Part shown: positions 31,374 to 63,610 of the stretch, piece after piece
Layout of the letters: each line of letters opens with the position of its first letter
Numbering within the stretch: the stretch's first letter is position 1
Source: Antedon bifida
Taxonomy: Eukaryota > Echinodermata > Crinoidea > Comatulida > Antedonidae
DNA length: 64,000 bases
Direction of reading: 5' to 3'
Assembly (NCBI GenBank): GCA_963402885.1
Contig: OY727094.1
Location: 18,354,501-18,418,500, forward strand
Notes under the pieces: model-generated
Seen by the model: the letters and a program-made list of their open reading frames with translations, nothing else
Database searches by the model: none
What the model was told of the DNA's origin: nothing
Position numbers and translations under genes: made by a program

Positions 31374-32717
31374 TCAATCATTCTCTGTGTCAATGTAAGT
31401 ATAACTATGTGATTCAAGATCATTAGGAACCTGTGAAGCTGTTGAGTGTCTCCAATGACCATATACTTCTGTAGTAGGTACACGAGGTAATGAACGATCT
31501 TGTACTGTATGTCTTAAAATAACTCCTTCTCTTGTCTCATAATATACTTCAGGTTGAGTTACTTCTTTTCCTAAAGAATCAACTATTATAGTGTTATCAT
31601 TACGACACAAACAATAATGATATACGGGAACCAGAACAACAAGTACAATAATAATAACAACACCAGCAGCAATGATAATAACAACATCTAAAGATAAACT
31701 AATTCCTTTTTGAGAATTGTTTATGTTTGTTTTACTCGATGGTTCATACGAATTATCTGAGTTAATGATAGTATTTGAAACTGTTAATACTACAGACGAT
31801 GATACCTGTCCAATTTCATTAGTAGCAGTACATGTTATATTTGTTCCACTTTGTTTTATTGAAGGTCGTAAAAGTTTAAATGTTTGTCCAGTTTTGTCTA
31901 CAAAAATATCTTCATCTTTTATTAGAGGCACTAATGTCCAATGGTATTGTGAGACCGGTGGATTAGCAAACGTTTGGCAGAATAGAATCGTCTCTCTTCC
32001 AGGTAACACTGGATTGGTGTGTTGTATCTTTATCTCAGGTTTATATTGTATATTCAGAGGTTTCATTGAACATGATTTGTGATAACTTGAATCAAATGAT
32101 GAATACTGGTGACATTCGTAAACTGCTCCATTATCATCTTTTGTAGCGTTCATTGTATGTTGAACTGTCACCAAGTTTTCTGTGTTTGGTTTTGATATTC
32201 CATAATTGCGGTTTTGTGAATTTCGAGTAAGTTTTAAAGTTACAGGTGGAGTAACCTTCTCTGAAACACACGACATTGATATAGTAGAACCTAAGAGAAT
32301 GTCAGCTGTAGGTTGGTAACAAATAGGATATTCCAGAGAAGGCAGAGAATGTACAATTAACTCCGCTTTTCGTGAACTTTTCAATACAATTCTAGAGTTC
32401 AATGACATAACAACACATTGATAGAAACCGGCATCACTTCGCAATACATCTGAAATAACTAACGTCGTTATGTTTCCGAATGACAATTCATCGTGAACTT
32501 TAGTGATTCGCGAGTTTTTTTCATCGAAGAATATTTCTGCGTCATCTTTATACCACGTAAGCTCTTCATTTATTAACCCACTAACCACGCAATTCAAAGA
32601 CTGATCCTTCCAGAGATCCACATTTCTGTTTAAGGGTTCATCTATAAACTGGATAACAGAATCACAAATTACAATCCACGTTGTCAGTAACAACCAAAAT
32701 CTCAAAGGTAACAACAT
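31374..32717 (-). CDS. intronless three-Ig-domain type I membrane receptor, class A, copy 1
   Basis: The single frame gives 447 aa. A signal peptide (about 1-18) is followed by Ig1 (Cys43-Cys101, Trp55, DAGFYQC), Ig2 of C2-set type (Cys150-Cys202, plus an extra pair Cys133/Cys216) and Ig3 (Cys247-Cys296, Trp260, ANPPVSQYHW). A short Asn/Ser-rich stalk leads to one uncharged transmembrane helix (about 345-368). The 79-residue tail has a membrane-side CLC, Tyr392, Tyr393, Tyr419, Tyr439, Tyr441 and an SH3-ligand motif RSLPRVP (408-414). The layout recalls nectin, kirrel and CADM cell-surface adhesion proteins, but I cannot assign an orthologue. It is the most distal of ten tandem copies. A class-A upstream element lies about 110 bp before the ATG. 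Surface recognition or signalling is inferred from the architecture. Confidence 0.9.
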   Translation of the reverse strand: MLLPLRFWLLLTTWIVICDSVIQFIDEPLNRNVDLWKDQSLNCVVSGLINEELTWYKDDAEIFFDEKNSRITKVHDELSFGNITTLVISDVLRSDAGFYQCVVMSLNSRIVLKSSRKAELIVHSLPSLEYPICYQPTADILLGSTISMSCVSEKVTPPVTLKLTRNSQNRNYGISKPNTENLVTVQHTMNATKDDNGAVYECHQYSSFDSSYHKSCSMKPLNIQYKPEIKIQHTNPVLPGRETILFCQTFANPPVSQYHWTLVPLIKDEDIFVDKTGQTFKLLRPSIKQSGTNITCTATNEIGQVSSSVVLTVSNTIINSDNSYEPSSKTNINNSQKGISLSLDVVIIIAAGVVIIIVLVVLVPVYHYCLCRNDNTIIVDSLGKEVTQPEVYYETREGVILRHTVQDRSLPRVPTTEVYGHWRHSTASQVPNDLESHSYTYIDTEND

Positions 32718-32800
32718 TGTTAATTTTTATTATCTTCTTACAAACAGACAGAAATTGAACAAGATATTTAAATATCAATACGAATAGCATAACTCACCGG

Positions 32801-32848
32801 TTATGACGTTGTACCAATACTTTTTAAAGTTATGTTTCTCGTTTCTCC
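32801..32848 (-). promoter_or_regulatory. class-A conserved upstream element (copy 1)
   Basis: On the plus strand it contains TTATGACGTTGTACCAATA, then AAGTTATGTTTCTCGTTTCT, about 85-130 bp before the ATG. The same two blocks recur upstream of the other class-A genes. TGACGT is a CRE half-site. Confidence 0.55.
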
Positions 32849-33849
32849 AAAATATATGCAATTTCTTTTGTATACAGTGTTTCATTTTTTCTTTTCTCTT
32901 TTATCATTAAAATAATAAAAGTGATCCAAATTGATCTAAGGAGGTCCTTCAAAAGAATTATGGACATTATAAATGTTTCTAGAAATTGTGAAGTTTTAAA
33001 AAGTAATAACAATTAAAATCTCAAAGTTTTAGAAAAGTATTATTAATGTATTAATTAAATTAAATATTTTAAAATACGTTTAATGATGGATATGCAAGAA
33101 TATGCCCTTTTGCCACACAAACTACTGTAGTGTTTGAATAGTCCAAGAAATCATGGATGGATTTATATATTCACTGGGTTGATAAATCATGCACATATCC
33201 CGTGGATATACTAGTCGAACTACTATGCTCCAATTGCGTTGTGGATGAAAAAGGTGACTTGTTAAGCGCACCTTCACGTCACCAGGCGCCTATGAACATC
33301 CAATGAAAACTAATTCGAAACCTATAAAAAAAAAAACACCACCGGTACAGTACAAAATCAACAACCACATAATTGCATTCCTTTCTTAGTTATGTGAGTA
33401 CCTAGAAAAGCAAAAATGAATATTGCCAACATAACAAATTAGATCAAATCAATCAAGTTCATTGCTTCAAAAACGAATATTGCAGATCTGTACCTATGTT
33501 CTGACCAATCTTTGCAAATTTTTAAAAGCTTTATGAGTTTTGCAGAACCATTTATTTTATATAAAGTAAGCTTAATTTTTAAAAGTCTGATTATTAATTT
33601 GCTTAATTTATACAGTATTATAATTAATAAAAATCATACGAAATGTCATAACATTACTGATCAAATAACGTGATTACTTTTATAATCATCGATATCACAT
33701 AGTTGGGATACCTTTGCATCCATTATATCTCGAAAACGCTTTCTATCCAGATTCGTAATCTACAAACAATGGTCTAGAAATGTGTTCTCTTTCGGTGATA
33801 CTCCCTTCGTCTGCCACTGGACTATATAGAGTATGCCGATGTTGTTTGG

Positions 33850-34320
33850 CATCCGGATCTATTCATCTATCGTATTATTATGGGGACTAGATTTAATATA
33901 TGATCATTCCAGAGCTATTTGCAAATTTGATTCTCTCGCTGAAAGGAGAGCAAAGCATTTGCCAAATTTGCCTTTACAAATCATTCTGCTGATTTAATTC
34001 CTCCCACTAGACTCCAATTACAACGCTAGAAAATTACGTAATTCTGACAAATTCTTTCAAAAGTAAAACTAGTAAATTCTCCAATAGTCCTATTCCGTTT
34101 TATACACAGTTACTCAATAACCCCCTTAATTTTCCACTTCTGGCTGTCTGCTCGAAAGCGATTCTTTTGGGTTTTTTTCCCAATATCAAATTTTAGAGTT
34201 TAGGTTTTTTGTAATTGTTTTGAGATTTTTATATTTGTATATTTTTGTAAAATTACTTACAATTTGACCTTTGGCCACGATATATAATTTATTTTATGTG
34301 GATTATTATAATAAAGGTAA
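33850..34320 (+). mobile_element. LINE 3'-end fragment
   Basis: The frame reads like the C-terminus of CR1/jockey-type LINEs: FDSLAERRAKHLPNLPLQI, then ARKLRNSDKFFQK. It is interrupted by stops and followed by a short AT-rich 3' region ending in ATAATAAAGG. Only this end is present; it lies between receptor copies 1 and 2. Confidence 0.55.
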
Positions 34321-35661: not shown

Positions 35662-37002
35662 TCAATCATTTTCAGTGTCAATATAAGTATAACTATGTGA
35701 TTCAAGATCATTAGGAACCTGTGAAGCTGTTGAGTGTCTCCAATGACCATATACTTCTGTAGTAGGTACACGAGGTAATGAACGATCTTGTACTGTATGT
35801 CTTAAAATAACTCCCTCTCTTGTCTCATAATATACTTCCGGTTGAGTTACTTCTTTTCCTAAAGAATTAACTATTGTAGTGTTATCATTACGACACAAAC
35901 AATAATGATATACGGGAACCAGAACAACAAGTACAATAATGATAACAACACCAGCAGCGATGATAATAACAACATCTAATGATAAATTTATTTCTTTCTC
36001 AGAATTGTTTATGTTCGTTTTACTCGATGGTTCGTACGAATTATCTGAGTTAATGATAGTATTTGAAACTGTTAATACTACAGACGATGATACCTGTCCA
36101 ATTTCATTAGTAGCAGTACATGTTATATTTGTTCCACTTTGTTCTATTGAAGGTCGTAAAAGTTTTAAAGTTTGTTCAGTTTTGTCAACAAAAATATCTT
36201 CTTCTTTTATTGGAGGCACTAATTTCCAACGGTATTGTGAGACCGGTGGATTAGCAAACGTTTGGCAGAATAGAATCGTCTCTCTTCCAGGTAACACTGG
36301 ATTTGTGTGTTGTATCCTAATCTCAGGTTTATATTGTATATTTAGAGGTTTCATTGAACATGATTTGTGATAATTTGAATCAAAAGATGAATGCTGGTGA
36401 CATTCGTAAACTGCTCCATTATCATCCTTCGTCGCCTGTAACGTAAGTTGAACTGTTACCAAGTTTCCTGTCTCTTGCATTGGTATTCCAGAGTCTACAA
36501 TTTTAGAATTACGTGTGAATTGTAAAGTTACAGAAGGGGTAACCTTTTCAGAAACACATGACATTAATATAGTAGAACCCAAGAAAATGTCACCTTTTGG
36601 TTGATTACAAACGGGATATTCTAGAGACGGAACAGAACGCACAATTAATTCCGCTTTTCGTGAACTTTCTAATACCCTCTCAGATTCCACTGATATAACG
36701 ACACATTGATAAAAACCGGCATCACTTCGCAATGTTTTGTCAATATCCAATGTTGTTATATTTCCGGTGGATATTTCACTGTGATCTTTAGATATCCGTG
36801 AGTCTTCAACAAAAGCTATCAATCCACCATTTTTAAACCAAGTAAGCTCTTCATTAATTAACCCACTAACTACACAATACAAAGAGTGGTCCTCACCAAG
36901 ATCTACTTGTCCGTTTAAGGGTTCATCTATAAACTGAATAACCGCATCACAAATAACATAAAACGGTGTTATAACCAACGCAAAACTCAAAGATAACAAC
37001 AT
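35662..37002 (-). CDS. intronless three-Ig receptor, class A, copy 2
   Basis: The product is 446 aa starting MLLSLSFALVITPFYVICDA, a clear signal peptide. Ig1 has YCVVSG and DAGFYQC with LTWFKNGG. The loop between them (GLIAFVEDSRISKDHSEIS) differs from the other copies. Ig2 (LMSCVSEK, AVYECHQ) and Ig3 (FCQTFANPPVSQYRW, ITCTATNEIG) are nearly the same as in copy 1. The tail is complete, with NTTIVNSLGKEV in place of NTIIVDSLGKEV. The 3' flank (35,395-35,661) is homologous to that of copy 5 (46,790-47,063), so these two units share a duplication history. Confidence 0.9.
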   Translation of the reverse strand: MLLSLSFALVITPFYVICDAVIQFIDEPLNGQVDLGEDHSLYCVVSGLINEELTWFKNGGLIAFVEDSRISKDHSEISTGNITTLDIDKTLRSDAGFYQCVVISVESERVLESSRKAELIVRSVPSLEYPVCNQPKGDIFLGSTILMSCVSEKVTPSVTLQFTRNSKIVDSGIPMQETGNLVTVQLTLQATKDDNGAVYECHQHSSFDSNYHKSCSMKPLNIQYKPEIRIQHTNPVLPGRETILFCQTFANPPVSQYRWKLVPPIKEEDIFVDKTEQTLKLLRPSIEQSGTNITCTATNEIGQVSSSVVLTVSNTIINSDNSYEPSSKTNINNSEKEINLSLDVVIIIAAGVVIIIVLVVLVPVYHYCLCRNDNTTIVNSLGKEVTQPEVYYETREGVILRHTVQDRSLPRVPTTEVYGHWRHSTASQVPNDLESHSYTYIDTEND

Positions 37003-37133
37003 AATTCAAATCTTTTATTTTTATATAAACAGGTATAAGCTAATGCAGAAAATGATTATTAGCTATTTATTCATAAATAAGATTAACATAGACATGTTCA
37101 GATAATGATTCAAATTTGTGCCTATTAATTTAT

Positions 37134-37155
37134 AAGTTATGTTTCTCGTTTTCGA
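37134..37155 (-). promoter_or_regulatory. class-A conserved upstream element (copy 2), partial
   Basis: AAGTTATGTTTCTCGTTTTC lies about 132 bp before the ATG. The TGACGT block found in most class-A promoters is not recognisable here. Confidence 0.45.
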
Positions 37156-37835: not shown

Positions 37836-39185
37836 TCAATCGTTTTCTGTGTCAATATAGGTATAACTATGTGATTCAAGATCATTAGGAACCTGTGAAG
37901 CTGTCGAATGTCTCCAATGTCCATATACCTCTGTAGTAGGTACACGAGGTAATGAACGATCTTGTACTGTATGTCTTAAAATAACTCCATCTCTTGTTTC
38001 ATAATACACTTCAGGTTGAGTTACTTCTTTTCCTAATGAATCAACTATTATAGTGTTATCATTACGACACAAACAATAATGATATACAGGAACCAGGACA
38101 ACAAGTACAATAATGATAACAACACCAGCAGTGATGATAATAACAACATCTAATGATAAACGTATTCCTTTCTGAGAATTGTTTAAGTTTGTATTACTCG
38201 ATGGTTCGTACGAATTATCTGAGTTAATGATAGCATTTGAAACTGTTAATACTACAGATGATGATACCTGTCCAATTTCATTAGTAGCAGTACATGTTAT
38301 ATTTGTTCCACTTTGTTTTATTGAAGGTCGTAACAGTTTTAATGTTTGTCCAGTTTTTTCTACAAAAATATCTTCATCTTTAATTGGAGGCACTAATTTC
38401 CAACTATATTGTGAGACCGGTGGATTAGCAAAGGTTTGGCAGAATAGAATCGTCTCTCGTCCAGGTAACACTGGATTAGTGTGTTGTATCTTTATCTCAG
38501 GTTTATATTGTATATTCAGAGGTTTCATTGAACATGATTTGTGATAATTTGAATCAAATGATGAATGCTGGTGACATTCGTATACTGCTCCATTATCATC
38601 TTTCGTCGTGTTTTTTGTAAGTTGAACTGTTACTAAGTTTCCTTTCTCTGTCATTGGTATTCCAGAGTTTATACTTTTAGAATTACGTGTAAATTGTAAA
38701 GTTACAGGAGGGGTAACCTTTTCAGAAACACATGACATTGACATTGTAGAACCTAACAGAGTGTCAGGTTTCGATTGATGACAAAGGGGATATTCTGGAG
38801 AAGGTAAAGAACGAACAATTAATTCCGCTTTACGAGAACGTTTCAATATTCCTCCATACGCTAATGATATAACAACACATTGATAGAAACCGGTATCACT
38901 TTGCAATGTATTGTCAATAACCAATGTTGTAAAATTTCCAAATGATACTTCATTTTGGACTTCAGATATTCTAGATTCTTCTTCATTTAACATCATCAGA
39001 CTTTCATCTTTATACCATGTAAGCTTCTCATTCATTAACCCACTAACAATGCAAGAAAAAGAATGATCTTCTCCAATATCAACATATCCGTTTATGGGTT
39101 CATCTATAAACGTAATAGGTCCGTCACAAATTACACAACCCGTTGTCATAATCAATGTAAGAATCACTGTTAACAAAGTGCTCAT
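37836..39185 (-). CDS. intronless three-Ig receptor, class A, copy 3
   Basis: 449 aa, start MSTLLTVILTLIMTTGCVIC (signal peptide). Ig1 contains FSCIVSGLMNEKLTWYKDES and SDTGFYQC. Ig2 and Ig3 follow the class-A pattern (PPVSQYSWKLVPP). The tail is complete, with TRDGVIL instead of TREGVIL. Its ectodomain is nearly the same as copy 4, differing mainly in a few Ig1 positions (ES/EN, EV/EG, SF/SI), so the pair is a recent duplication. About 3.6 kb of repeat-rich DNA separates them. Confidence 0.9.
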   Translation of the reverse strand: MSTLLTVILTLIMTTGCVICDGPITFIDEPINGYVDIGEDHSFSCIVSGLMNEKLTWYKDESLMMLNEEESRISEVQNEVSFGNFTTLVIDNTLQSDTGFYQCVVISLAYGGILKRSRKAELIVRSLPSPEYPLCHQSKPDTLLGSTMSMSCVSEKVTPPVTLQFTRNSKSINSGIPMTEKGNLVTVQLTKNTTKDDNGAVYECHQHSSFDSNYHKSCSMKPLNIQYKPEIKIQHTNPVLPGRETILFCQTFANPPVSQYSWKLVPPIKDEDIFVEKTGQTLKLLRPSIKQSGTNITCTATNEIGQVSSSVVLTVSNAIINSDNSYEPSSNTNLNNSQKGIRLSLDVVIIITAGVVIIIVLVVLVPVYHYCLCRNDNTIIVDSLGKEVTQPEVYYETRDGVILRHTVQDRSLPRVPTTEVYGHWRHSTASQVPNDLESHSYTYIDTEND

Positions 39186-39271: not shown

Positions 39272-39318
39272 TCATGACGTTGTACCAGTATATTACAAAG
39301 TTGTGTTTCTCGTTTTCT
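39272..39318 (-). promoter_or_regulatory. class-A conserved upstream element (copy 3)
   Basis: TCATGACGTTGTACCAGTA followed by AAGTTGTGTTTCTCGTTTTC, 90-135 bp before the ATG. It has the same order and spacing as copies 1 and 4. Confidence 0.55.
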
Positions 39319-42827: not shown

Positions 42828-44177
42828 TCAATCATTTTCTGTATCAATGTAAGTATAACTATGTGATTCAAGATCATTAGGAACCTGTGAAGCTGTTGAG
42901 TGTCTCCAATGACCATATACTTCTGTAGTAGGTACACGAGGTAATGAACGATCTTGTACTGTATGTCCTAAAATAACTCCTTCTCTTGTCTCATAATATA
43001 CTTCAGGTTGAGTTACTTCTTTTCCTAAAGAATCAACTATTATAGTGTTATCATTACCACACAAACAATAATGATATACGGGAACCAGAACAACAAGTAC
43101 AATAATGATAACAACACCAGCAGCGATGATAATAACAACATCTAATGATAAACTTATTCCTTTCTGGGAATTGTTTAAGTTTGTATTACTCGATGGTTTG
43201 TACGAATTATCTGAGTTAATGATAGAATTTGAAACTGTTAATACTACAGACGATGATACCTGTCCAATTTCATTAGTAGCAGTACATGTTATAGTTGTTC
43301 CACTTTGTTTTATTGAAGGTCGTAACAGTTTTAATGTTTGTCCAGTTTTGTCTACAAAAATATCTTCATCTTTTATTAGAGGCACTAATGTCCAACGATA
43401 TTGTGAGACCGGTGGATTAGCAAAGGTTTGGCAGAATAGAATCGTCTCTCGTCCAGGTAACACTGGATTAGTGTGTTGTATCTTTATATCAGGTTTATAT
43501 TGTATATTCAGAGGTTTCATTGAACATAATTTGTGATAACTTGAATCAAATGATGAATGCTGGTGACATTCGTATACTGCTCCATTATCATCTTTCGTCG
43601 TGTTTTTTGTAAGTTGAACTGTTACTAAGTTTCCTTTCTCTGTCATTGGTATTCCAGAGTTTATACTTTTAGAATTACGTGTAAATTGTAAAGTTACAGG
43701 AGGGGTAACCTTTTCAGAAACACACGACATTGACATTGTAGAACCTAACAGAGTGTCAGGTTTTGATTGATGACAAAGGGGATATTCTGGAGAAGGTAAA
43801 GAACGAACAATTAATTCCGCTTTACGAGAACGTTTCAATATTCCTCCATACGCTAATGATATAACAACACATTGATAGAAACCGGTATCACTTTTCAATG
43901 TATTGTCAATAATCAATGTTGTAAAATTTCCGATTGATACTTCATTTTGGCCTTCAGATATTCTAGATTCTTCTTCATTTAACATCATCAGATTTTCATC
44001 TTTATACCATGTAAGCTTCTCATTCATTAACCCACTAACAATGCAAGAAAAAGAATGATCTTCTCCAATATCAACATATCCGTTTATGGGTTCATCTATA
44101 AACGTAATAGGTCCGTCACAAATTACACAACCCGTTGTCATAATCAATGTAAGAATCACTGTTGACAAAGTGCTCAT
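42828..44177 (-). CDS. intronless three-Ig receptor, class A, copy 4
   Basis: 449 aa from MSTLSTVILTLIMTTG. A methionine 13 codons upstream is in frame, but a one-base difference in the 5' leader means that extension is absent from the twin copy 3, so the inner ATG is chosen. Oddities against copy 3: GTTITC replaces GTNITC in Ig3, which removes an N-glycosylation sequon. The tail has CLCGND rather than CLCRND and VILGHT rather than VILRHT. The CLCGND variant is otherwise found only in the class C genes, which points to gene conversion between classes. Confidence 0.9.
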   Translation of the reverse strand: MSTLSTVILTLIMTTGCVICDGPITFIDEPINGYVDIGEDHSFSCIVSGLMNEKLTWYKDENLMMLNEEESRISEGQNEVSIGNFTTLIIDNTLKSDTGFYQCVVISLAYGGILKRSRKAELIVRSLPSPEYPLCHQSKPDTLLGSTMSMSCVSEKVTPPVTLQFTRNSKSINSGIPMTEKGNLVTVQLTKNTTKDDNGAVYECHQHSSFDSSYHKLCSMKPLNIQYKPDIKIQHTNPVLPGRETILFCQTFANPPVSQYRWTLVPLIKDEDIFVDKTGQTLKLLRPSIKQSGTTITCTATNEIGQVSSSVVLTVSNSIINSDNSYKPSSNTNLNNSQKGISLSLDVVIIIAAGVVIIIVLVVLVPVYHYCLCGNDNTIIVDSLGKEVTQPEVYYETREGVILGHTVQDRSLPRVPTTEVYGHWRHSTASQVPNDLESHSYTYIDTEND

Positions 44178-44274: not shown

Positions 44275-44320
44275 TTATGACGTTGTTCCAGTATATTAGA
44301 AAGTTGTGTTTCTCGTTTTC
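44275..44320 (-). promoter_or_regulatory. class-A conserved upstream element (copy 4)
   Basis: TTATGACGTTGTTCCAGTA then AAGTTGTGTTTCTCGTTTTC, about 100-140 bp before the chosen ATG. Confidence 0.55.
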
Positions 44321-44676: not shown

Positions 44677-44873
44677 TCAATCATTTTCAGTGTCAATGTA
44701 AATATAACTATGTGATTCAAGATGTGAAGCTGTTGAGTGTCTCCAATGACCATATACTTCTGTAGTAGGTACACGAGGTAATGAACGATCTTTTTACTGT
44801 ATGTCTTAAAATAACTGCATCTCTTGTTTCATAATACACTTCAGGTTGAGTTACTTCTTTTCTTAAAGAATCA
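44677..44873 (-). pseudogene. broken receptor copy: tail only
   Basis: The last ~65 tail codons of a receptor gene are recognisable up to the KEVTQPEVYYET region. A 12-base loss removes NDLESH-proximal residues, and a base change with an insertion near 44,792 breaks the frame. Nothing of the transmembrane or Ig part follows; the sequence switches to unrelated DNA at 44,873. Confidence 0.8.
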
Positions 44874-45441: not shown

Positions 45442-46165
45442 TCAATCATTTTCAGTGTCAATATAAGTATAACTATGTGATTCAAGATCATTAGGAACCT
45501 GTGAAGCTGTTGAGTGTCTCCAATGACCATATACTTCTGTAGTAGGTACACGAGGTAAGGAACGATCTTGTACTGTATGTCTTAAAATAACTCCTTCTCT
45601 TGTCTCATAATATACTTCCGGTTGAGTTACTTCTTTTCCTAAAGAATCAACTATTATAGTGTTATCATTACCACACAAACAATAATGATATACGGGAACC
45701 AGAACAACAAGTACAATAATGATAACAACACCAGAAGCGATTACTATGATAACATCCAATGATAATTTTTTTCCAGTCATGTTATTACCTGAATTTTGAT
45801 TTCGTAGTTTGCCATTTTGCTCATTACTTTTTTAAATAGTCGGAGATTCAACTAATATCGTAACGGTTGATGATGATTTACCGATTTTATTTATAGCAGT
45901 ACATGTAATATTTGTTCCATTGTGCACTATCGAAGGTTTGATTATTTTTAGTACCTGTCCAGTTTCATCAATACTGTAGTCACTTTTTGCAAAGTTTGGT
46001 TCAATTTTCCAATTATAAGTCCCAACAGGTGGGTTAGACGATAAAATCGTCTCCCTTTCTGGTATAAAAGGATTGGTGTATTGAAGCTGTATTTCTGGTT
46101 TATATTGAACATCTAACGGGCCAATAGAACACGTAGATTCTGATTCGGGAGCTAGTGGTGAATTT
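45442..46165 (-). pseudogene. truncated class-C receptor copy
   Basis: Tail, transmembrane helix, stalk and Ig3 closely match copy 7 (53,367-54,722). A frame disruption near 45,830 makes a stop, and a 12-base loss near 46,054 removes the Ig3 FCQT cysteine region. Homology ends inside Ig2 at about 46,165. The part from 45780 to the stop is open (112 aa, MTGKKLSLDV...) and keeps the CLCGND tail, but it has no signal peptide. Confidence 0.85.
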
Positions 46166-46417
46166 TTTTTTTATCAATTAGTACGGTTAGAAGTGTTGCC
46201 AAACTCTTTCGTAACAGTATTGGATAGTCAGTACATGTACTGAGTATATTCAGTGAAATTACTGTACTTCGGAGTATTGAAAAACATCCGACAAATACAT
46301 TGTTTTATTTGTTAAAATAATATTTTTTAATCATTACTATGATTAGAAAAAACAATTGTTGCATTTTAATCATTCTACAGAAAGTCGGATTATTATTATC
46401 ATTATTATGATTAAATC

Positions 46418-46646
46418 CAATGACCCGTAACCTACTTCGTTTGTGGCAACACAGGTTATATTAGTACCAGTTTGCTTGATCTTTGGATTTAATAGTTTTA
46501 AATTTTTTCAATTCCATCATCAACACAGGGTAACCAATTATTTTTTCCTTTTTAACGGTTTCATCTAAAGGCTCTGTTGTAAATATTCCTTTACAATTTT
46601 CCAAATGCGACAATAATATAATTCAAAGAATTAAAATGGAACTCAT
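46418..46646 (-). pseudogene. internally deleted class-B receptor relic
   Basis: The end of Ig3 (GYGSS-side, EVGYGS) is fused by a large internal deletion to the signal peptide and first Ig1 codons of a class-B gene; the start is at 46646, and the leader beyond it matches copy 10. Flanking 46,185-46,400 matches the 3' flank of copy 8 (57,440-57,620), so one degenerate class-B unit sits here, away from the other class-B genes. Confidence 0.75.
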
Positions 46647-47063
46647 TCTTAAAACTACTTGAAAAGTAATGACGATTGCCTGCAAAACCGTATGTCATTA
46701 TTGTTTGATACATAATACATACCTGCATAATAACTTATACACATTGTTAACTATTCATGACATGGCTCAACAAACTGACAAATATGATTACAAAGAAAAG
46801 GATTAGCATTAATTCGTTACCACAATTAGATGAAAACGTGTTATCAAAGCATACTATGGTCCTCGACATCAGAGATATCTACACGGAGGATAATTAAATC
46901 CAATTTGAATATTGCATTAAAGTAATTAACAATATCAAATTAATAGCACATTTATTAATACATACTAAAGTTTTCTTTAGAATGATGCTTAAATGTGATT
47001 TTTTTTCATCTACCGTATCAATTGAAGAAAATTTGATCTTAGATCGGGCCATAAACCTCGATA

Positions 47064-48510: not shown

Positions 48511-48557
48511 TTATGACGCTGTGCCAATATATAACAAAGTTGTGTTTCTCGTTTACA
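48511..48557 (-). promoter_or_regulatory. class-A conserved upstream element (copy 5)
   Basis: TTATGACGCTGTGCCAATA then AAGTTGTGTTTCTCGTTTAC, 107-153 bp before the ATG. Confidence 0.55.
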
Positions 48558-48607: not shown

Positions 48608-49143
48608 GACATTCGTATATACAGTAGCTCAATTTTCATATTTGTTTGCGTTCAATTTAAATTGAACTTCTACTAAGTTTCTGTCTCTGCAGTTGATATT
48701 CCAGAGTTTACATTTTGATAATTACTAGTAAATTGTAAAATTACATGGAGGGGGAGGTGGTAACGTTTTCAGAAACATTTTGTAGAACCTAAGATAATGT
48801 TACCTTTTGATTGACGACCAATGAAGGTAGTGAACACACCAGTAATTCCGTTTTACGTGAACTTTACAATACTCTTCCAGATTCCAATGACATAAGAGCG
48901 CATTGATAAATATGCATCTATAGTAACAAAGGTAGTTAAATTTCCGAATGAATTTCTGTGGATTACAGACATTTGTCATTCTTCTTCATTGATATATATC
49001 TGTCCACCATTTTCAAACCATGTAAGATTTTTATTCTTGAATCCACTAACAATACAACAAAAAAGAATGATTCTCTTTCATATATAAACTAATAGCTTCA
49101 ACACAAGAAGGTAAGAATTACTGTTAACAAATAATATTGTCAT
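48608..49143 (-). pseudogene. broken class-A receptor copy: signal peptide to Ig2 only
   Basis: Starting from an ATG at 49143, sequence homologous to the class-A signal peptide, Ig1 and first half of Ig2 can be followed to about 48,608. Several small deletions and an insertion near 48,745 (GGAGGGGGAGGTGG) break the frame. Ig3, transmembrane helix and tail are missing; the next sequence is the copy-5 promoter. Confidence 0.8.
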
Positions 49144-49439: not shown

Positions 49440-49556
49440 TATATCAATATTTATCAATATAAGTAAAACTATGTAATTCAAGATCATTAGGAACCTGTGA
49501 AGCTGTTGAGTGTCTTCAATGACCATATACTTCTGTAGTAGATACACGAGGTAAAT
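49440..49556 (-). pseudogene. broken receptor copy: last ~38 tail codons
   Basis: The stop-proximal tail sequence (YGHWRHSTASQVP region) is recognisable up to RVPTTEVYG, then ends at 49,556 in unrelated DNA. Its 3' flank (49,337-49,440) matches that of the relic at 44,677. Confidence 0.75.
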
Positions 49557-50291
49557 GTTGTGATTTTAGGTTTTGTGATCGGTGGGAATGCCTATGCGAG
49601 TTTCGTCTTTTGGATTGAATACTCGTAGAATATTACTATATTACTATACTATATTACTATAAGCCCTATCCTGATCACTATCTTTGTCAGTTGTACTACT
49701 CTCATAATTACTAGAGCTGTAGTCCATGAGACTAGAGCTTCTAAAAGAGTTACTGAAACAATCCTCGGTCAGTAATCTGCGAAGCTTAGACATAGATCTA
49801 GTTTTACAACCTTTAGTACAATGGTGACCCTGTACATTGAAACTAGAGTCTAAAACTTAGTAGTTATAATTCACTAAACTTTATTCACAACATCGTAAAT
49901 AAAAACTTTGTATCATTGTGGTTTTCTATTGGACATAGTAGTCCTTACAGTATCTTATTCTAATAATATAATAATTAATAGAAATTATTTTATATTTCTG
50001 TTTTAGTTATAAAGATCATTAGATAAATTGCTGGTCTTTTATTATATTATTTTTTATTACTGTTATGTATATGTTAAGTGGGGATGTGGATAGAGGTGCT
50101 TGTCACCTGTTCATCCCTTTCTTTTCGCTGCTTTTTTTGTCTTGTGTTTTTGTATGCAGTGATAAAGTTTAATAAATATATAAATAAAAAAATAATAAAT
50201 AAATAATGCTTTTATACAGTTGTATTAAAGCATTACATTGATTAGCAGTTTGTCAAGATCTCGTACAACAGTTGATAAATGATTTGTCTGT
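49557..50291. other. intergenic, no gene recognised
   Basis: AT-rich spacer between the tail relic and the MITE. Nothing further could be supported. Confidence 0.5.
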
Positions 50292-51027: not shown

Positions 51028-52380
51028 TCAATCATTCTCTGTGTCAATGTAAGTATAACTATGCGATTCAAGATCATTAGGAACCTGTGAAGCTGTTGAG
51101 TGTCTCCAATGACCATATACTTCTGTAGTAGGTACACGAGGTAATGAACGATCTTGTACTGTATGTCTTAAAATAACTCCTTCTCTTGTCTCATAATATA
51201 CTTCAGGTTGAGTTACTTCTTTTCCTAAAGAATCAACTATTATAGTGTTATCATTACGACACAAACAATAATGATATACGGGAACCAGAACAACAAGTAC
51301 AATAATGATAACAACACCAGCAACGATGATAATAACAACATCTAATGATAAACTTATTTCTTTTTTAGAATTGTTTAAGTTTGTACTCGATGGTTCGTAC
51401 GAATTATCTGAGTTAATGACGCTATTTGAAACTGTTAATACTACAGACGATGATAATTGTCCAATTTCATTAGTAGCAGTACATGTTATATTTGTTCCAC
51501 TTTGTTCTATTGAAGGTCGTAAAAGTTTTAATGTTTGTCCAGTTTTGTCAGCAAAAATATCTTCATCTTTTATTGGAGGCACTAATGTCCAATGGTATTG
51601 TGAGACCGATGGATTAGCAAAAGTTTGGCAGAATAGAATCGTCTCTCGTCCAGGTAACACTGGATTTGTGTGTTGTATTTTTATCTCAGGTTTATATTGT
51701 ATATTCAGAGGTTTCATTGAACATGATTTGCGATAACTTGAATCAAATGATGAATACTGGTGACATTTGTAAACAGCTCCATTGTCATCTTTCGTCGCGT
51801 TTAATTTAAGTCGAAATTTTACCAAGTTGTTAATTTCTTGTTTTATCGTTCCAGCGTTTAAATTTTGAGAATTACGTATGAATTGTAAAGTTACAGGTGG
51901 GTTAACTTTCTCAGAAACACATGACATTGATATAGTAGATCCCAAGAGAATGTCAGCTGTAGGTTGATGACAAATGGGATACTGTGGAGAAGGAAAAGAA
52001 CGCACAATTAATTCCGCTTTACGCGACTTTTTCAAAATTATTCCAGATTCCAATGATATAACAACACATTGGTATAAACCGGTATCACTTCGTAAAGCAT
52101 TTAAAACAGCCAATGTTGTAATATTTCCAAATGATATTTCATTGTTGGTTTTAGAAATGTGTAATTTAACGTCTTCGTCCTCAAAAAGTAATTGTACGCC
52201 ATTTTTATGCCATGTAAGTTCTTCATTAATTAACCCGCTAACAACACATGTCAAAGAGTGGTCCTTTCCAATATCAACATATCCATTTAAAGGTTCATCT
52301 ATAAATTTAATAAAATCACCACGGACCACAATAAACGTTATCACAAACAACTTAATACTCAATAAAAAAAACATTGTCAA
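51028..52380 (-). CDS. intronless three-Ig receptor, class A, copy 6
   Basis: 450 aa, start MTMFFLLSIKLFVITFIVVR (signal peptide; Met3 is an equal alternative). Ig1 is the most divergent of class A, with LTWHKNGVQLLFEDEDVKLH and a longer loop. Ig2 has AVYKCHQ in place of AVYECHQ. Ig3 has ANPSVSQYHW in place of ANPPVSQYHW. The stalk is one residue shorter (EPSSTNLNN). The tail is the common form. Confidence 0.9.
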   Translation of the reverse strand: MTMFFLLSIKLFVITFIVVRGDFIKFIDEPLNGYVDIGKDHSLTCVVSGLINEELTWHKNGVQLLFEDEDVKLHISKTNNEISFGNITTLAVLNALRSDTGLYQCVVISLESGIILKKSRKAELIVRSFPSPQYPICHQPTADILLGSTISMSCVSEKVNPPVTLQFIRNSQNLNAGTIKQEINNLVKFRLKLNATKDDNGAVYKCHQYSSFDSSYRKSCSMKPLNIQYKPEIKIQHTNPVLPGRETILFCQTFANPSVSQYHWTLVPPIKDEDIFADKTGQTLKLLRPSIEQSGTNITCTATNEIGQLSSSVVLTVSNSVINSDNSYEPSSTNLNNSKKEISLSLDVVIIIVAGVVIIIVLVVLVPVYHYCLCRNDNTIIVDSLGKEVTQPEVYYETREGVILRHTVQDRSLPRVPTTEVYGHWRHSTASQVPNDLESHSYTYIDTEND

Positions 52381-52470: not shown

Positions 52471-52515
52471 AAGACATTGTATCAATATATTAAAAGTTAT
52501 GTTTCTCGTTTTCTA
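52471..52515 (-). promoter_or_regulatory. class-A conserved upstream element (copy 6), diverged
   Basis: AAGTTATGTTTCTCGTTTTC is intact about 115 bp before the ATG. The distal block is AAGACATTGTATCAATA and has lost the TGACGT core. Confidence 0.5.
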
Positions 52516-53366: not shown

Positions 53367-54722
53367 TCAATCATTTTCTGTATCAATGTAAGTATAACTA
53401 TGCGATTCAAGGTCGTTAGGAACCTGTGAAGCTGTTGAATGTCTCCAATGGCCATATACTTCTGTAGTAGGTACACGAGGTAATGAACGATCTTGTACTG
53501 TATGTCTTAAAATAACTCCTTCTCTTGTCTCATAATACACTTCAGGTTGAGTTACTTTTTTCCCTAAAGAATCAACTATTATAGTGTTATCATTACCACA
53601 CAAACAATAATGATATACGGGAACCAGAACAACAAGTACAATAATGATAACAACACCAGCAGCGATTACTATGATAACATCCAATGATACTTTTTTTCCA
53701 GTCATGTTATTGCCTGAATTTTGATTTCGTAGTTTGCCATTTTGCTCATTACTTTTTAAAATATTCGGAGATTCAACTAATATCGTAACGGTTGATGATG
53801 ATTTACCGATTTTATTTACAGCGGTACATGTAATATTTGTTCCGTTGTGCACTATCGAAGGTTTGATTAGTTTTAGTACCTGTCCAGTTTCATCAATACT
53901 ATAGTCACTTTTTGCAAAGTTTGGTTCAATTTTCCAATTATAAGTCCCAACAGGTGGGTTAGACGATGTCTGACAAAATAAAATTGTCTCCCTTTCTGGT
54001 ATAACAGGATTGGTGTATTGAAGCTGTATTTCTGGTTTATATTGAACATCTAACGGGCCAATAGAACACGTAGATTCTGATTCGGGAGCTAGTGGTGAAG
54101 TCTGATGACATGTGAAAATAGCTCGATTATCTTCTTTTCTTGTTTTTAATAGCATTTGTAACTTTTCATTTTCTACAAACGAGACACCATTTTTAACTAT
54201 ATTCATATTACGAGAAATTGTTAAATTTACAGGAGGTTCAACACGTTCTGAAATACAAGAAATTGTTATAACTGATCCAATGGCAATGTTATCTTCATGT
54301 CCAGAACACAGTGGATATATTGATGACGGTTGCGATAACACTGTAAGTGTAGCCTCCAATGAACGTTCCTCTATTGAATTTGTTTCAGTTGATATAACGA
54401 CACATTGATAACGTCCCCTGTCAGATTTTAAAAGGTTATTTAAAGTCAAAGTTGTTAATTTTCCAATCTTGATGATGTTGCTATATCCAATTGTTATTCT
54501 ATTATCATCTTCCTGAGTTCGTATTAGTACTCCATCTTTTAACCAAGCCAAATTTTGTTGATTATCCATACCATTAACTATACAGGAAAAAGTGTGATCC
54601 TTTCCAAGATCCACGCGAGCGTCAGAAGGCTGATCTTTAAATTCAATTGTAGCCTTACAATGGTGTAAACAAAACATTGCAAAATTATTTACTAAGAGAA
54701 AAAATAAAACGTTTCTTTCCAT
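53367..54722 (-). CDS. intronless three-Ig receptor, class C, copy 7
   Basis: 451 aa, start MERNVLFFLLVNNFAMFCLH (signal peptide). The outer domains belong to their own class. Ig1 has FSCIVNGMDNQQNLAWLKDG and SDRGRYQC. Ig2 has ITISCISERVEPPVNLTISR and AIFTCHQTS, with the extra Cys pair kept (PLCSG, STCSIG). Ig3 has FCQTSSNPPVGTYNW and ITCTAVNKIG. From SLDVIIVIAAGVV onward it joins the common transmembrane and tail sequence, with CLCGND and SLGKKV. No class-A or class-B upstream element was found. Confidence 0.9.
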   Translation of the reverse strand: MERNVLFFLLVNNFAMFCLHHCKATIEFKDQPSDARVDLGKDHTFSCIVNGMDNQQNLAWLKDGVLIRTQEDDNRITIGYSNIIKIGKLTTLTLNNLLKSDRGRYQCVVISTETNSIEERSLEATLTVLSQPSSIYPLCSGHEDNIAIGSVITISCISERVEPPVNLTISRNMNIVKNGVSFVENEKLQMLLKTRKEDNRAIFTCHQTSPLAPESESTCSIGPLDVQYKPEIQLQYTNPVIPERETILFCQTSSNPPVGTYNWKIEPNFAKSDYSIDETGQVLKLIKPSIVHNGTNITCTAVNKIGKSSSTVTILVESPNILKSNEQNGKLRNQNSGNNMTGKKVSLDVIIVIAAGVVIIIVLVVLVPVYHYCLCGNDNTIIVDSLGKKVTQPEVYYETREGVILRHTVQDRSLPRVPTTEVYGHWRHSTASQVPNDLESHSYTYIDTEND

Positions 54723-57618: not shown

Positions 57619-58953
57619 TTAATCATTATCAGTGTCAATGTAAGTATAACTATGTGATTCAAGATCATTAGGAACCTGTGAAGCTGTTGAGTGTCTCCAA
57701 TGACCATATACTTCTGTAGTAGGTACACGAGGTAAGGAACGATCTTGTACTGTATGTCTTAAAATAACTCCTTCTCTTGTCTCATAATATACTTCAGGTT
57801 GAGTTACTTCTTTTCCTAAAGAATCAACTATTATAGTGTTATCATTACGACACAAACAATAATGATATACGGGAACCAGAACAACAAGTACAATAATGAT
57901 AACGACACCAGCAGCAATGATTATGATTACATCCAATGATAAACCAATATCGCTTTCCTTACTTTGAAATTCGTTACGATTTTCATCATATGTCGTCGAT
58001 CCATGTTCAGAATCCACCTGGTTATATGACACATGCAAATTTACAGATGATGACCCGTAACCTACTTCATTTTTGGCAACACATGTTATATTAGTTCCAG
58101 TTTGCTTGATTTTTGGATTTAACAGTTTTAAAATTTGTCCAGATTCATCTATATTGTATTCATCTTCTGACAGTTGCGGATCAAATAACCAGCGGTACGA
58201 GGTTACAGGTGGATTTGAAGAGGTTTGACAAAATACAATTGTCTCACGACCTGGTAGTGCTGGACTAGCGTACTGTACAGCAGTATCTGGTTTATATAAT
58301 ACATTCAAAGGACCCACAGAACATAATGTGTAGTTATTTTGTACTAAAGTTGATTCTTGTTTACAAGTAAACACAATACCGTTATATTGTTTTTTAGCTG
58401 TCATGCTTAACTCTAACGATATATTTTTTCCATCTTCCACAAGTTGTGTGTTTTTATATCGAATATCTATTGGATAGATCCAATCTAACGTTACTGGAGG
58501 TACCACTTTCTCCGATAAACATAATAATTTTAAATTTGATCCAGCAATGATCGGTATTGTTTCTAAAATACAATATGGATACTGGGACGAGGGAAGTGAT
58601 TTGACAACGAGAGTTGCAGTTCTTGATGAAGCAATTTTTTCATCCGTTGATGATTTTACAACTGCGCAATAATACTGACCTGCATCACTTGGGATAATTC
58701 CAGTTATTAACAGAATACTACTTGTGCCACTTTCCTTACTTTGTATAGTTATTCTTGGTTCTTCGTTCAACCTCCTTCCACTTCGAAACCATTGCAGTGA
58801 TTGATCACTTTCAATTCCATTAACATCACATTGAAACCAATGGTTATTTCCCTTTTTAACGGTTTCATCTGAAGGTTGCGTTGTAAATGTTCCTTCACAA
58901 TATATTTGCTCCAAACATGACGATAGAAATAAAAGATACAATGTGGATTTCAT
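57619..58953 (-). CDS. intronless three-Ig receptor, class B, copy 8
   Basis: 444 aa from MKSTLYLLFLSSCLEQIYCE. An in-frame ATG eight codons upstream is not conserved, and this start gives the same length as copies 9 and 10. Ig1: WFQCDVNGIESDQSLQWFRS and SDAGQYYC. Ig2: LKLLCLSEKVVPPVTLDWIY and IVFTCKQES, with the extra Cys pair (YPYCILE, LCSVG). Ig3: FCQTSSNPPVTSYRWLFDP and ITCVAKNEVG. The tail is the common one except the end YIDTDND. An ACGCGTT class-B element lies about 150 bp upstream. Confidence 0.9.
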   Translation of the reverse strand: MKSTLYLLFLSSCLEQIYCEGTFTTQPSDETVKKGNNHWFQCDVNGIESDQSLQWFRSGRRLNEEPRITIQSKESGTSSILLITGIIPSDAGQYYCAVVKSSTDEKIASSRTATLVVKSLPSSQYPYCILETIPIIAGSNLKLLCLSEKVVPPVTLDWIYPIDIRYKNTQLVEDGKNISLELSMTAKKQYNGIVFTCKQESTLVQNNYTLCSVGPLNVLYKPDTAVQYASPALPGRETIVFCQTSSNPPVTSYRWLFDPQLSEDEYNIDESGQILKLLNPKIKQTGTNITCVAKNEVGYGSSSVNLHVSYNQVDSEHGSTTYDENRNEFQSKESDIGLSLDVIIIIAAGVVIIIVLVVLVPVYHYCLCRNDNTIIVDSLGKEVTQPEVYYETREGVILRHTVQDRSLPRVPTTEVYGHWRHSTASQVPNDLESHSYTYIDTDND

Positions 58954-59103
58954 TATTGAAACAATTCCACAATACATGTTTACTGTATTAAAATGTAAAA
59001 CGTACTGCCTTAAAAATCATGATTATTTAGATACGCACATTATTATTGACAGCGTCAACTATTCCTGGACTTGTTATGAAGGCTTTACAAAAATGATGTT
59101 GTG

Positions 59104-59118
59104 GTACGCGTTTTAGTG
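59104..59118 (-). promoter_or_regulatory. class-B conserved upstream element (copy 8)
   Basis: GTACGCGTTTTAGTG on the plus strand, about 150 bp before the ATG. It is shared only with copies 9 and 10. Confidence 0.5.
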
Positions 59119-60208: not shown

Positions 60209-61540
60209 TCAATCATTTTCTGTGTCAATATAAGTATAACTATGCGATTCAAGATCATTAGGAACCTGTGAAGCTGTTGAGTGTCTCCAATGACCATATA
60301 CTTCTGTAGTAGGTACACGAGGTAAAGAACGATCTTGTACTGTATGTCTTAAAATAACTCCCTCTCTTGTCTCATAATATACTTCAGGTTGAGTTACTTC
60401 TTTTCCTAAAGAATCAACTATTATAGTGTTATCATTACGACACAAACAATAATGATATACGGGAACCAGAACAACAAGTACAATAATGATAACGACACCA
60501 GCAGCAATGATTATGATTACATCCAATGATAAACCATTATCGCGTTCCTTACTTTGAAATTCGTTACGATTTTCATCACCTGTCGGCGATCCATGTTCAG
60601 AATCCACCTGGTTATATGACACATGCAAATTTACAGATGATGACCTGTAACCTACTTCATTTGTGGCAACACATGTTATATTAGTTCCAGTTTGCTTGAT
60701 CTTTGGATTTAATAATTTTAAAATTTGTCCAGATTCATCTATATTGTATTCATCATTTGACAGTTGCGGATCAAATAACCAGCGGTATGAGATTACAGGT
60801 GGATTTGAAGAGGTTTGACAAAATACAATTGTCTCACGACCTGGTAGTGCTGGACTAGCGTATTGTACAACAGTATCTGGTTTATATAATACATCCAAAG
60901 GACCCACAGAACAAGATGTGTAGTTATTTTGTACTAAAGTTGATTCTTGTTTACAAGTAAACACAATACCGTTATATTGTTTCTTCGCTGTCATGCTTAA
61001 CTCTAACGATATATTATTTCCATCTTCCGTAAGTTGTGTGTTTTTATCTCGAATATCTATTGGATACATCCAATCTAATGTTACTGGGGGTACCACTTTC
61101 TCCGATAAACATGATAATTTTAAATTTGATCCAGCAATGGTCGGTACTGTTTCTAAAATACAATATGGATACTGGGACGAGGGAAGTGATTTGACAACGA
61201 GAGTTGCAGTTCTTGATGAAGCAATTGTTTCATACGTTGATGATTTTATAATTGCGCAATAATACTGACCTGCATCATTTGAGATAATTCCAGTAATATA
61301 TAGCATGCTACTTGTTCCACTTTTCTTATTTTCAATAGTTATTCTTGATTCTTCATTCAACATTTGCCCATTTCGAAACCATTGCAGTGATTCATCACTT
61401 TCTATTATATTTACATCACAAGAAAACCAATGATTTTCTCCTTTTTTAACTTCATCATCTGAAGGTTGTAAAGTGAATGTTCTTCCACAGTATGTCTTCG
61501 AGAACAATGACAGAATTAATAGAAACAAAATGAAATTCAT
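60209..61540 (-). CDS. intronless three-Ig receptor, class B, copy 9
   Basis: 443 aa, start MNFILFLLILSLFSKTYCGR (signal peptide). Ig1: WFSCDVNIIESDESLQWFRN and NDAGQYYC. Ig2 and Ig3 are close to copies 8 and 10 but carry private changes (TEDGNNISLE, NEVGYRSSS). The stalk is SPTGDENRNEFQSKERDNGL. The tail is the common form ending YIDTEND, and 80 consecutive bases of it (60,246-60,325) are the same as in class-A copy 1 (31,411-31,490). Confidence 0.9.
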   Translation of the reverse strand: MNFILFLLILSLFSKTYCGRTFTLQPSDDEVKKGENHWFSCDVNIIESDESLQWFRNGQMLNEESRITIENKKSGTSSMLYITGIISNDAGQYYCAIIKSSTYETIASSRTATLVVKSLPSSQYPYCILETVPTIAGSNLKLSCLSEKVVPPVTLDWMYPIDIRDKNTQLTEDGNNISLELSMTAKKQYNGIVFTCKQESTLVQNNYTSCSVGPLDVLYKPDTVVQYASPALPGRETIVFCQTSSNPPVISYRWLFDPQLSNDEYNIDESGQILKLLNPKIKQTGTNITCVATNEVGYRSSSVNLHVSYNQVDSEHGSPTGDENRNEFQSKERDNGLSLDVIIIIAAGVVIIIVLVVLVPVYHYCLCRNDNTIIVDSLGKEVTQPEVYYETREGVILRHTVQDRSLPRVPTTEVYGHWRHSTASQVPNDLESHSYTYIDTEND

Positions 61541-61699
61541 TTTTTAAACTATTCCAATATATTCTATTTATAAATGTAATAGGAAATATAACGGCGATTG
61601 CCTTCAAACCTAATTTATTATAATTCCGATACACCCTATTTATAAACATTGGTTATATTCATGGAATTACTATAAAGGCTCTACAAAAAGTTGTTTGTG

Positions 61700-61714
61700 T
61701 TACGCGTTCTAAAG
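61700..61714 (-). promoter_or_regulatory. class-B conserved upstream element (copy 9)
   Basis: TTACGCGTTCTAAAG, about 160 bp before the ATG, in the same position class as copies 8 and 10. Confidence 0.5.
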
Positions 61715-62278
61715 TTGTTTACACTTTTCTGTAAAAGATTCCAATCTTTTTGTCAGTGTACTTTCAGGTGTTTTAGTAATTATATTTACCCTCTAGGATT
61801 ATATTACAATAAAATAAAATTCTTATCAATGTTAACACATATAGTTGACTAATTAAATTAATTTTAATACTAGACATACACTTTTGCAGACATTGTAAAA
61901 CGGTTCAACATTGCCAAAATAGATTAAAGTAAATCCCAGACAATTTTTGATACAAAATTGACTGGGTAACAGTCAAACTGATTCCGTTACTTTATGAGAC
62001 AGACGTTAAATTTAAAATACTCTTGATAATTTGAAATTTTTCTCAACAAGAAGGATTCTGAGTTTTTTTTAAATCGAAACATTTTAAAAAGAAAAATATT
62101 TATATTGTCGTAAGTTTGCATTATATTTTTTAATGAAATAAATAATAAATTTAAATTATGAACTAAAATGATTTTTTAAGAATGTATAATTTCCTTTGAT
62201 GGATATTATGTTCAATATAACCGTGTTTCTCGTCTCGTGAGCCTAATAACTTAACTTTCTATTCATAGAAAATGGATA
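61715..62278. other. spacer between copies 9 and 10
   Basis: A class-A-like GTGTTTCTCGTCTCGTGAG lies near 62,222, just 3' of copy 10, without a gene attached. It may be a promoter relic. Nothing else recognised. Confidence 0.4.
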
Positions 62279-63610
62279 TCAATCATTTTCTGTATCAATA
62301 TAAGTATAACTATGTGATTCAAGATCATTAGGAACCTGTGAAGCTGTTGAGTGTCTCCAATGACCATATACTTCTGTAGTAGGTACACGAGGTAATGAAC
62401 GATCTTGTACTGTATGTCTTAAAATAACTCCCTCTCTTGTCTCATAATACACTTCAGGTTGAGTTACTTCTTTTCCTAAAGAATCAACTATTATAGTGTT
62501 ATCATTACGACACAAACAATAATGATATACGGGAACCAGAACAACAAGTACAATAATGATAACGATACCAGCAGCAATGATTATGATTACATCCAGTGAT
62601 AAACCAATATCGCTTTCCTTACTTTGAAATTCGTTACGATTTTCATCACCTGTCGTCGATCCATGTTCAGAATCCACCTGGTTATATGACACATGCAAAT
62701 TTATAGAGGATGACCCGTAACCTACTTCATTTGTGGCAACACATGTTATATTAGTTCCAGTTTGATTGATCTTCGGATTCAATAATTTTAAAATTTGTCC
62801 AGATTCATCTATTTTGTATTCATCCTTTGACAGTTGCGGATTAAATAACCAGCGGTATGAGATTACAGGTGGATTTGAAGAGGTTTGACAAAATACGATT
62901 GTCTCACGACCTGGTAGTGCTGGACTAGCGTACTGTACAACAGTATCTGGTTTATATAATACATCCAAAGGACCCACAGAACAAGATGTGTAGTTATTTT
63001 GTACTAAAGTTGATTCTTGTTTACAAGTAAACACAATACCGTTATATCGTTTCTTAGCTGTCATGCTTAACTCTAACGATATATTTTTTCCATCTTCCAT
63101 AAGTTGTGTGTTTTTATCTCGAATATCTATTGGATACATCCAATCTAACGTTACTGGAGGAACCACTTTTTCCGATAAACATGATAATTTTAAGTTGGAT
63201 TCAGCAATAATAGGTGTTGTTTTTAATATACAATAAGGGTATTGAGGCGAGGGAAGTGATTTAACAACAAGAGTTGCAGTTCTTGATGAAATAATGTTTT
63301 CATCGGTTGATGACTGTACAACCGCGCAATAATACTGACCTGCATCACTTGGGATAATTCCAGTAATATATAGCATACTACTTGTCCCACTTTCGTTATT
63401 CTCAATAGTTATTCTTGGTTCTTCATTCAACCTCTTTCCATTTCGAAACCATTGCAGTGATTGATCACTTTTAATTCCATCAGCAACACAGGGAAACCAA
63501 TGATTTTTTCCTTTTTTAACGGTTTCATCTAAAGGTTGTGTTGTAATTATTCCTTTACAATTTTCCAAATGCGACAATAATATAATTAAAAGAAGTAAAA
63601 TAGAACTCAT
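62279..63610 (-). CDS. intronless three-Ig receptor, class B, copy 10
   Basis: 443 aa from MSSILLLLIILLSHLENCKG. An ATG 13 codons upstream is in frame but would put charged and mixed residues before the signal peptide; the inner start matches copies 8 and 9 in length. Ig1 reads WFPCVADGIKSDQSLQWFRN and SDAGQYYC. Ig3: FCQTSSNPPVISYRWLFNP. The tail is the common form. Its leader sequence is nearly the same as that of the class-B relic at 46,418-46,646. Confidence 0.9.
   Translation of the reverse strand: MSSILLLLIILLSHLENCKGIITTQPLDETVKKGKNHWFPCVADGIKSDQSLQWFRNGKRLNEEPRITIENNESGTSSMLYITGIIPSDAGQYYCAVVQSSTDENIISSRTATLVVKSLPSPQYPYCILKTTPIIAESNLKLSCLSEKVVPPVTLDWMYPIDIRDKNTQLMEDGKNISLELSMTAKKRYNGIVFTCKQESTLVQNNYTSCSVGPLDVLYKPDTVVQYASPALPGRETIVFCQTSSNPPVISYRWLFNPQLSKDEYKIDESGQILKLLNPKINQTGTNITCVATNEVGYGSSSINLHVSYNQVDSEHGSTTGDENRNEFQSKESDIGLSLDVIIIIAAGIVIIIVLVVLVPVYHYCLCRNDNTIIVDSLGKEVTQPEVYYETREGVILRHTVQDRSLPRVPTTEVYGHWRHSTASQVPNDLESHSYTYIDTEND

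Follow-up and report, generated by a model that had tools for sequence, protein, structure and literature searches.

Two described systems lie closest to the receptor genes considered here. The echinoderm gene kirrelL encodes an immunoglobulin (Ig)-domain protein with a transmembrane (TM) segment, is intronless in all echinoderms examined, has a named copy in the crinoid Anneissia japonica and is well conserved within the phylum; retrotransposition is proposed as its origin (PMC8903837). The clustered protocadherins of fish form tandem arrays in which ectodomain and TM segment of each unit share one large exon, and their 3' regions have been homogenized among paralogues lineage by lineage, by regional gene conversion (PMC1852091). 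Here we describe ten intact receptor genes of the Ig superfamily (IgSF), R1 to R10, which lie on the minus strand at 31374–63649 of a 64,000-nucleotide stretch of the crinoid Antedon bifida (assembly GCA_963402885.1, contig OY727094.1, positions 18,354,501 to 18,418,500), hereafter the window. The TM segment and cytoplasmic tail (TM+tail) of these genes evolve in concert within Antedon, which is the new finding, and that the genes form a tandem single-exon family with such a tail is, in our view, very probable.

By analogy, kirrelL is the nearest precedent, as an Ig-domain ectodomain is found here by Pfam in the three proteins run, and one TM segment and an intronless coding frame in 10/10 genes; unlike the array, kirrelL appears to be treated as a single gene, and a search of the main text of that study found no mention of duplicates or paralogues (PMC8903837). 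In pattern, the closest analogue is the clustered protocadherins, although these carry cadherin repeats rather than Ig domains and have the main part of their cytoplasmic region in separate constant exons, whereas each gene here has its own tail. The homogenized blocks of fugu are >99% alike with raised third-position GC (GC3) (PMC1852091), whereas TM+tail is 95–98% identical in DNA among R1–R10 and its GC3 is lowered. Our literature searches found kirrelL as the sole described intronless Ig receptor of echinoderms and found no description of the crinoid family. The CADM, nectin, IgLON, DIP and ROBO proteins also have multi-Ig ectodomains, over three domains of which our profile aligns. Their genes are multi-exon, and the tail described here has no relative outside crinoids in its 24 matches. 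The Hydractinia Alr allorecognition complex shares the layout of clustered invertebrate IgSF TM genes but differs by its introns and varied tails; we know of no allorecognition in crinoids.

The intact genes were taken from a listing of open reading frames (ORFs), in which the window has just one other closed ORF of at least 200 aa, part of a reverse transcriptase (7372–8181). They are R1 (31374–32717, 447 aa, TM+tail block 31374–31697), R2 (35662–37002, 446 aa, TM+tail 35662–35985), R3 (37836–39185, 449 aa), R4 (42828–44177, 449 aa from an internal ATG, frame open to 44216), R5 (47064–48404, 446 aa), R6 (51028–52374, 448 aa from ATG, the listed frame to 52380 beginning with TTG), R7 (53367–54722, 451 aa), R8 (57619–58977, 452 aa), R9 (60209–61540, 443 aa) and R10 (62279–63610, 443 aa from ATG, the listed frame to 63649 beginning with TTG), all on the minus strand. 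An in-frame stop lies 3–39 nt ahead of each listed frame start (10/10), and with the preferred ATG in R4 (44177), R6 (52374) and R10 (63610) the maximum stop-to-start distance is 63 nt. Because the frames start just after an in-frame stop, the coding frame appears to be complete in one exon from the N-terminus to the stop codon in all ten genes, and single-exon status covers the predicted coding part of R1–R10.

An earlier, sequence-only reading of this DNA had proposed ten intronless minus-strand IgSF receptors with a common tail, and the ORFs, hydropathy and Pfam bear this out. Pfam was run on three of the ten proteins (R1, R7 and R9), in each of which it found up to three Ig stretches and no cadherin family; the remaining seven align with these three end to end. 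The signal peptide and TM helix of that reading agree with hydropathy, by which all ten proteins have a hydrophobic, signal-like N-terminus and one strong TM segment, and its three Ig domains agree with Pfam to the extent just given. The lengths measured from ATG starts are 443–452 aa, and 82 residues follow the TM segment in 10/10 proteins. The proposed spacing needs correction: neighboring frames are 0.7–3.6 kb apart by their coordinates, not 1–4 kb.

Three protein searches, with R7 (E ≤ 1e-3), the tail and a 17-sequence profile (E ≤ 1e-10), gave 30, 24 and 26 matches, respectively, which comprise 36 distinct proteins, 10 from Antedon mediterranea and 26 from Anneissia japonica. None of the matches is a non-crinoid relative, at a sensitivity limited by a candidate step that requires shared 5-residue words and may miss distant relatives, and by a profile cut-off below which weaker non-crinoid relatives would go unlisted. 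The family that the sequence-only reading did not recognize is therefore present in public databases under generic names such as "cell adhesion molecule 1-like" and "kin of IRRE-like", and at this sensitivity it is confined to crinoids; a search of the tail, which that reading had proposed as a check, gave the 24 crinoid matches alone. Copy numbers of homologues are lower bounds because the protein database is clustered at 90% identity. The contigs that carry the A. mediterranea entries are 38,962,182 bases long in all 10 cases, and those of the Anneissia entries 1,305,899 bases long in 23 of 26; from these equal lengths we infer a single main cluster, or chromosome region, in each species. 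The A. mediterranea protein P0001 matches R7 at 98% identity, in keeping with a source of the window in Antedon or a very close relative. The A. mediterranea entry P0002 keeps the tail and lacks the stalk-TM stretch, and is either a splice form out of the ordinary or an error of gene prediction; a string search of R7 with guessed strings found no splice signals for the intron that P0002 might suggest.

Complete tails fall into two types, A, mostly ending in YIDTEND, and B, mostly ending in QNTL, with a common core of QPxVYY, RSLPRxP and YGHWRHSxASQVPxDL (with single-row exceptions). All ten genes of the window carry an A-type tail. The B-type subfamily (P0022 and P0024–P0036) is found in both crinoids, has its own tail type and is also homogenized in Antedon; five Anneissia entries are labelled isoforms, so that some may have introns.

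The ectodomain and the tail of the receptors record different histories. Among R1–R10 third-position identity is ~0.4–0.7 in the ectodomain versus 0.85–0.96 in TM+tail. Averaged over the 45 pairs, the silent divergence (pS) is 0.548 in the first Ig domain (D1), 0.514 in the second (D2), 0.425 in the third (D3), 0.435 in the stalk and 0.144 in TM+tail, and the amino acid-changing divergence (pN) of the tail is 0.014. Conservation among the Ig domains is lowest in D1, followed by D2. Homologues were compared in an alignment of 31 of the 36 database proteins (P0002, P0021, P0023, P0026 and P0028 excluded) with R1–R10, and trees were built from 40 of its 41 rows, P0020 being dropped for its broken tail. 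In the ectodomain tree there are four A-type clades, three of them firm, and each contains both Antedon and Anneissia members; the lineages therefore predate the split of the two genera. The tail tree instead places all 13 Antedon A-type tails in a single clade (100/97, the bootstraps being rough). Approximately unbiased (AU) tests reject an Antedon-only clade for the ectodomain (p = 6e-6) and, for the tail, each of the four orthologous clades (p = 0.0067, 0.0066, 1.3e-6 and 0.0017).

The same reversal is seen in identities computed for 23 of the 28 A-type rows; the five excluded are Anneissia rows that have no counterpart in Antedon. A-type TM+tail identity is 0.960 between clades within Antedon (56 pairs) versus 0.896 between species within clades (47 pairs), whereas for D1 the values are 0.337 and 0.504, respectively. 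The B-type tail of Antedon behaves as the A-type does (0.966 between clades versus 0.864 between species). Diagnostic columns, in which the two species have no residue in common, number three in the tail and two in the ectodomain, the latter both gappy with 2–3 Antedon rows. These data show that the sameness of the tails reflects concerted evolution within the species and not youth of the copies, a point that the sequence-only reading missed.

The pair R3 and R4 gives a view of the process at short range. Their ectodomains are near-identical, and their tails and 3' flanks differ: 13 of the 18 silently changed codons fall in the tail, against 26% of the silent sites (share 0.264; binomial p = 6e-5, or 1.5e-4 if counted as 13/19). 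The homogenized block is bounded by the diverged stalk on one side and the stop codon on the other, and DNA likeness fades within 24 bases past the stop codon in 44/45 pairs (400 bases examined). R3 and R4 also have ~300 bp of upstream DNA in common and unrelated 3' flanks, and R2 and R5 have their 3' flank in common. As the mechanism we infer exchange between genes, either as gene conversion or as unequal crossing-over; the latter would suit R3 and R4, which match upstream but not 3', and R2 and R5, which match 3'.

An alignment of the upstream DNA revealed a 17-bp element 104–154 bp before the ATG in 9/10 genes. With up to two mismatches, the pattern AAAACGMGWAACAYAAC has nine matches in the window, each ahead of one gene on the gene strand, and none elsewhere, against 0.16 expected. 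As this pattern was derived from the same genes, the search was repeated with a version made from R1–R6 alone (up to three mismatches, 0.94 expected), which recovers the element of R1–R6, R8 and R10 in place, misses that of R9 and adds one stray site on the opposite strand. The elements, all on the minus strand, lie at 32829–32845 (R1, 112 bp before the ATG), 37136–37152 (R2, 134 bp), 39300–39316 (R3, 115 bp), 44303–44319 (R4, 126 bp), 48539–48555 (R5, 135 bp), 52496–52512 (R6, 122 bp), 59098–59114 (R8, 121 bp), 61694–61710 (R9, 154 bp, two mismatches to the pattern) and 63714–63730 (R10, 104 bp); R7 has no match at the search threshold. Clustered protocadherins have a conserved element in each promoter, and the element found here before nine of the ten genes is a putative promoter element. 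Its position makes a short leader that lacks a 5' intron likely. We could assign no known transcription factor to it. A TATA-like sequence, ATATAATAG, downstream of the element was considered and discarded, with four matches against 1.99 expected.

When the three-Ig profile was compared with structure chains, ROBO, CADM4, IgLONs, DIPs and nectins aligned over all three Ig domains. Adhesion proteins of this group mostly bind via their N-terminal Ig domains. All ten tails contain RSLPRVP, which we take to be an SH3-type ligand of class I, together with several tyrosines and with YTYI, presumably a sorting-type motif. The 21-residue core of the TM segment is free of charged residues, and an Asp is present only at its outer edge, so that an adaptor chain is an unlikely partner. 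These features suggest an adhesion or recognition function, and for cell-cell adhesion or recognition as the role we see an even chance.

The interpretation that best joins these observations, to which we assign a probability of roughly 0.6, is that of clustered crinoid adhesion or recognition receptors with variable ectodomains and one signalling tail kept alike by exchange and purifying selection. Each gene would encode a type I membrane receptor in a single exon, probably with its own compact promoter, and the 17-bp element would co-regulate the array. D1 and D2 diverge freely and, as part of the ectodomain, would bind partners on other cells, while exchange between genes inside the island of high identity, by either of the two routes named, together with purifying selection, would keep the tails interchangeable. 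All receptors could then signal into the same cytoplasmic pathway via the SH3-type ligand, the tyrosines and YTYI. Two forces would thus be separable in one small gene, one leaving the binding domains able to vary and the other, exchange, keeping the tail in common.

Several observations weigh against this interpretation. The fourth ectodomain clade (P0014 and P0011) unites two long branches and may be spurious, and concerted evolution of the tail is slight in Anneissia (0.908 between clades versus 0.896 between species; 0.874 between clades for type B). Raised GC3 was taken as a mark of gene conversion in the fugu protocadherin study (PMC1852091); no such rise is found in the homogenized region of R1–R10, where GC3 is lower than or equal to that of the ectodomain (0.10–0.21 versus 0.20–0.26). 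A third-position run test gives p < 0.01 (uncorrected) in 15/45 pairs, of which only 4/27 deep-lineage pairs and 0/9 R7 pairs are significant. Long runs within R1–R6 are mostly in D2–D3 and the stalk rather than in the tail, so homogenization among these genes extends further forward than the tail. The structure comparison picks no single family, with 1860 chains matched, of which the best 60 were inspected, titin being first. Finally, codon site models (M1a/M2a and M8a/M8, in our own implementation) detected no positive selection in D1–D2 of R1–R6 or R8–R10, at the low power of six and three sequences.

This last result bears on the alternative that keeps most credit, namely that the genes are coelomocyte immune receptors in which diversified binding domains face microbes or mediate self/non-self discrimination through one signalling tail. 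Copy number, the low conservation of D1, the broken copies described below, and the conserved tyrosines with the SH3-type ligand would all fit such receptors. The absence of detected positive selection counts mildly against an arms race, and the inhibitory ITIM pattern, [SIVLT]xYxx[IVL], is absent from all ten tails. We therefore regard an immune role as possible but rather unlikely. The sequence-only reading had offered recognition in a wider sense (immune, allorecognition or cell adhesion); recognition or adhesion is a role that we continue to infer.

Somewhat more doubtful is a lineage-specific expansion of kirrelL-type receptors, which would act when skeletogenic or other mesenchyme cells fuse or adhere. 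The structure of SYG-2, which we take to be a protein of the Kirrel/nephrin group, aligns over positions 43–320, and the label "kin of IRRE-like protein" is attached to 5/26 Anneissia and 1/10 Antedon members, which may reflect best-hit naming only. The intronless Ig-domain TM gene of all echinoderms examined, with its copy in A. japonica, speaks for this expansion (PMC8903837), yet KirrelL is conserved phylum-wide and none of our matches is non-crinoid (0/26 at E ≤ 1e-10 and 0/30 at E ≤ 1e-3), although the word-based step and strict cut-off may miss it.

Less credible still is an Ig counterpart of the clustered protocadherins that evolved in crinoids independently of vertebrates, in which intronless genes whose promoters share an element would give cells private adhesive surfaces, exchange would preserve one interchangeable signalling tail, and cells would thereby carry a combinatorial code of identity. 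If the receptors were such a surface code, crinoids would provide a compact system with one exon per member in which to study the wiring of many specificities into a single pathway.

The likeness of the tails might also arise without any exchange, if tail DNA were under direct nucleotide constraint from an overlapping regulatory or RNA function in otherwise ordinary duplicates. The low GC3 of the tail, the coincidence of the alike block with the stretch from TM segment to stop codon, and the weak run tests between deep lineages agree with such constraint, but it can neither make the tails of R3 and R4 more diverged than their ectodomains nor give species-wise grouping of tails against the ectodomain tree. 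On these two grounds pure nucleotide constraint was set aside as very improbable. That the array is young and its ectodomains diverge very fast under selection is scarcely tenable, since, close as R3 and R4 are in their ectodomains and R8–R10 are to one another, pS in D1–D3 is 0.50–0.80 between deep lineages, and the lineages, with Anneissia relatives in the same clade, are older than the Antedon-Anneissia split.

Concerning the origin of the receptor family, an ancestral retrocopy amplified in tandem, as the sequence-only reading suggested, is plausible by analogy with kirrelL. The OXYL C1q lectins of Anneissia have likewise been reported to lack introns and to comprise several paralogues (PMC6409975), so that paralogues of this kind may be no rarity among crinoids. 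The array bears on how frequently intronless Ig receptors have originated in echinoderms.

Five broken stretches of receptor sequence, all on the minus strand, fall between R4 and R6: a tail only (44680–44872); an R7-like stretch from mid-D2 to the tail (45445–46170, 94% aa identity, one in-frame stop in the stalk); an N-terminal part nearest to R10 (46421–46685); a decayed D1–D2 (48658–49062); and a decayed tail (49453–49569), possibly of the same locus as 48658–49062. The count of at least five broken copies proposed from the letters alone thus holds for stretches, but judged by position these may represent only three or four loci.

At lower coordinates in the window lies an RFC2 gene of several exons on the plus strand (15699–20900), whose exon at 19151–19423 matches an RFC2 chain (E = 1.4e-44) and upholds the earlier remark that neighboring conserved genes have introns; further pieces near 15.7, 18.6, 19.9 and 20.7 kb were read by eye. 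Pieces of retrotransposon reverse transcriptase are present at 6858–8181 and 29310–30674, with Pfam RVT_1 strong at 7348–8178 and weak at 29972–30403. The second piece is ~700 bp from the stop codon of R1 and says nothing on the origin of the array. A cysteine-rich open frame on the minus strand (14182–14475) has weak PHD/C1 similarity under the Pfam cut-offs, minisatellite arrays with 42-bp and 65-bp units occupy 27056–27539, and the sole tRNA found in the window is at 5418–5489.

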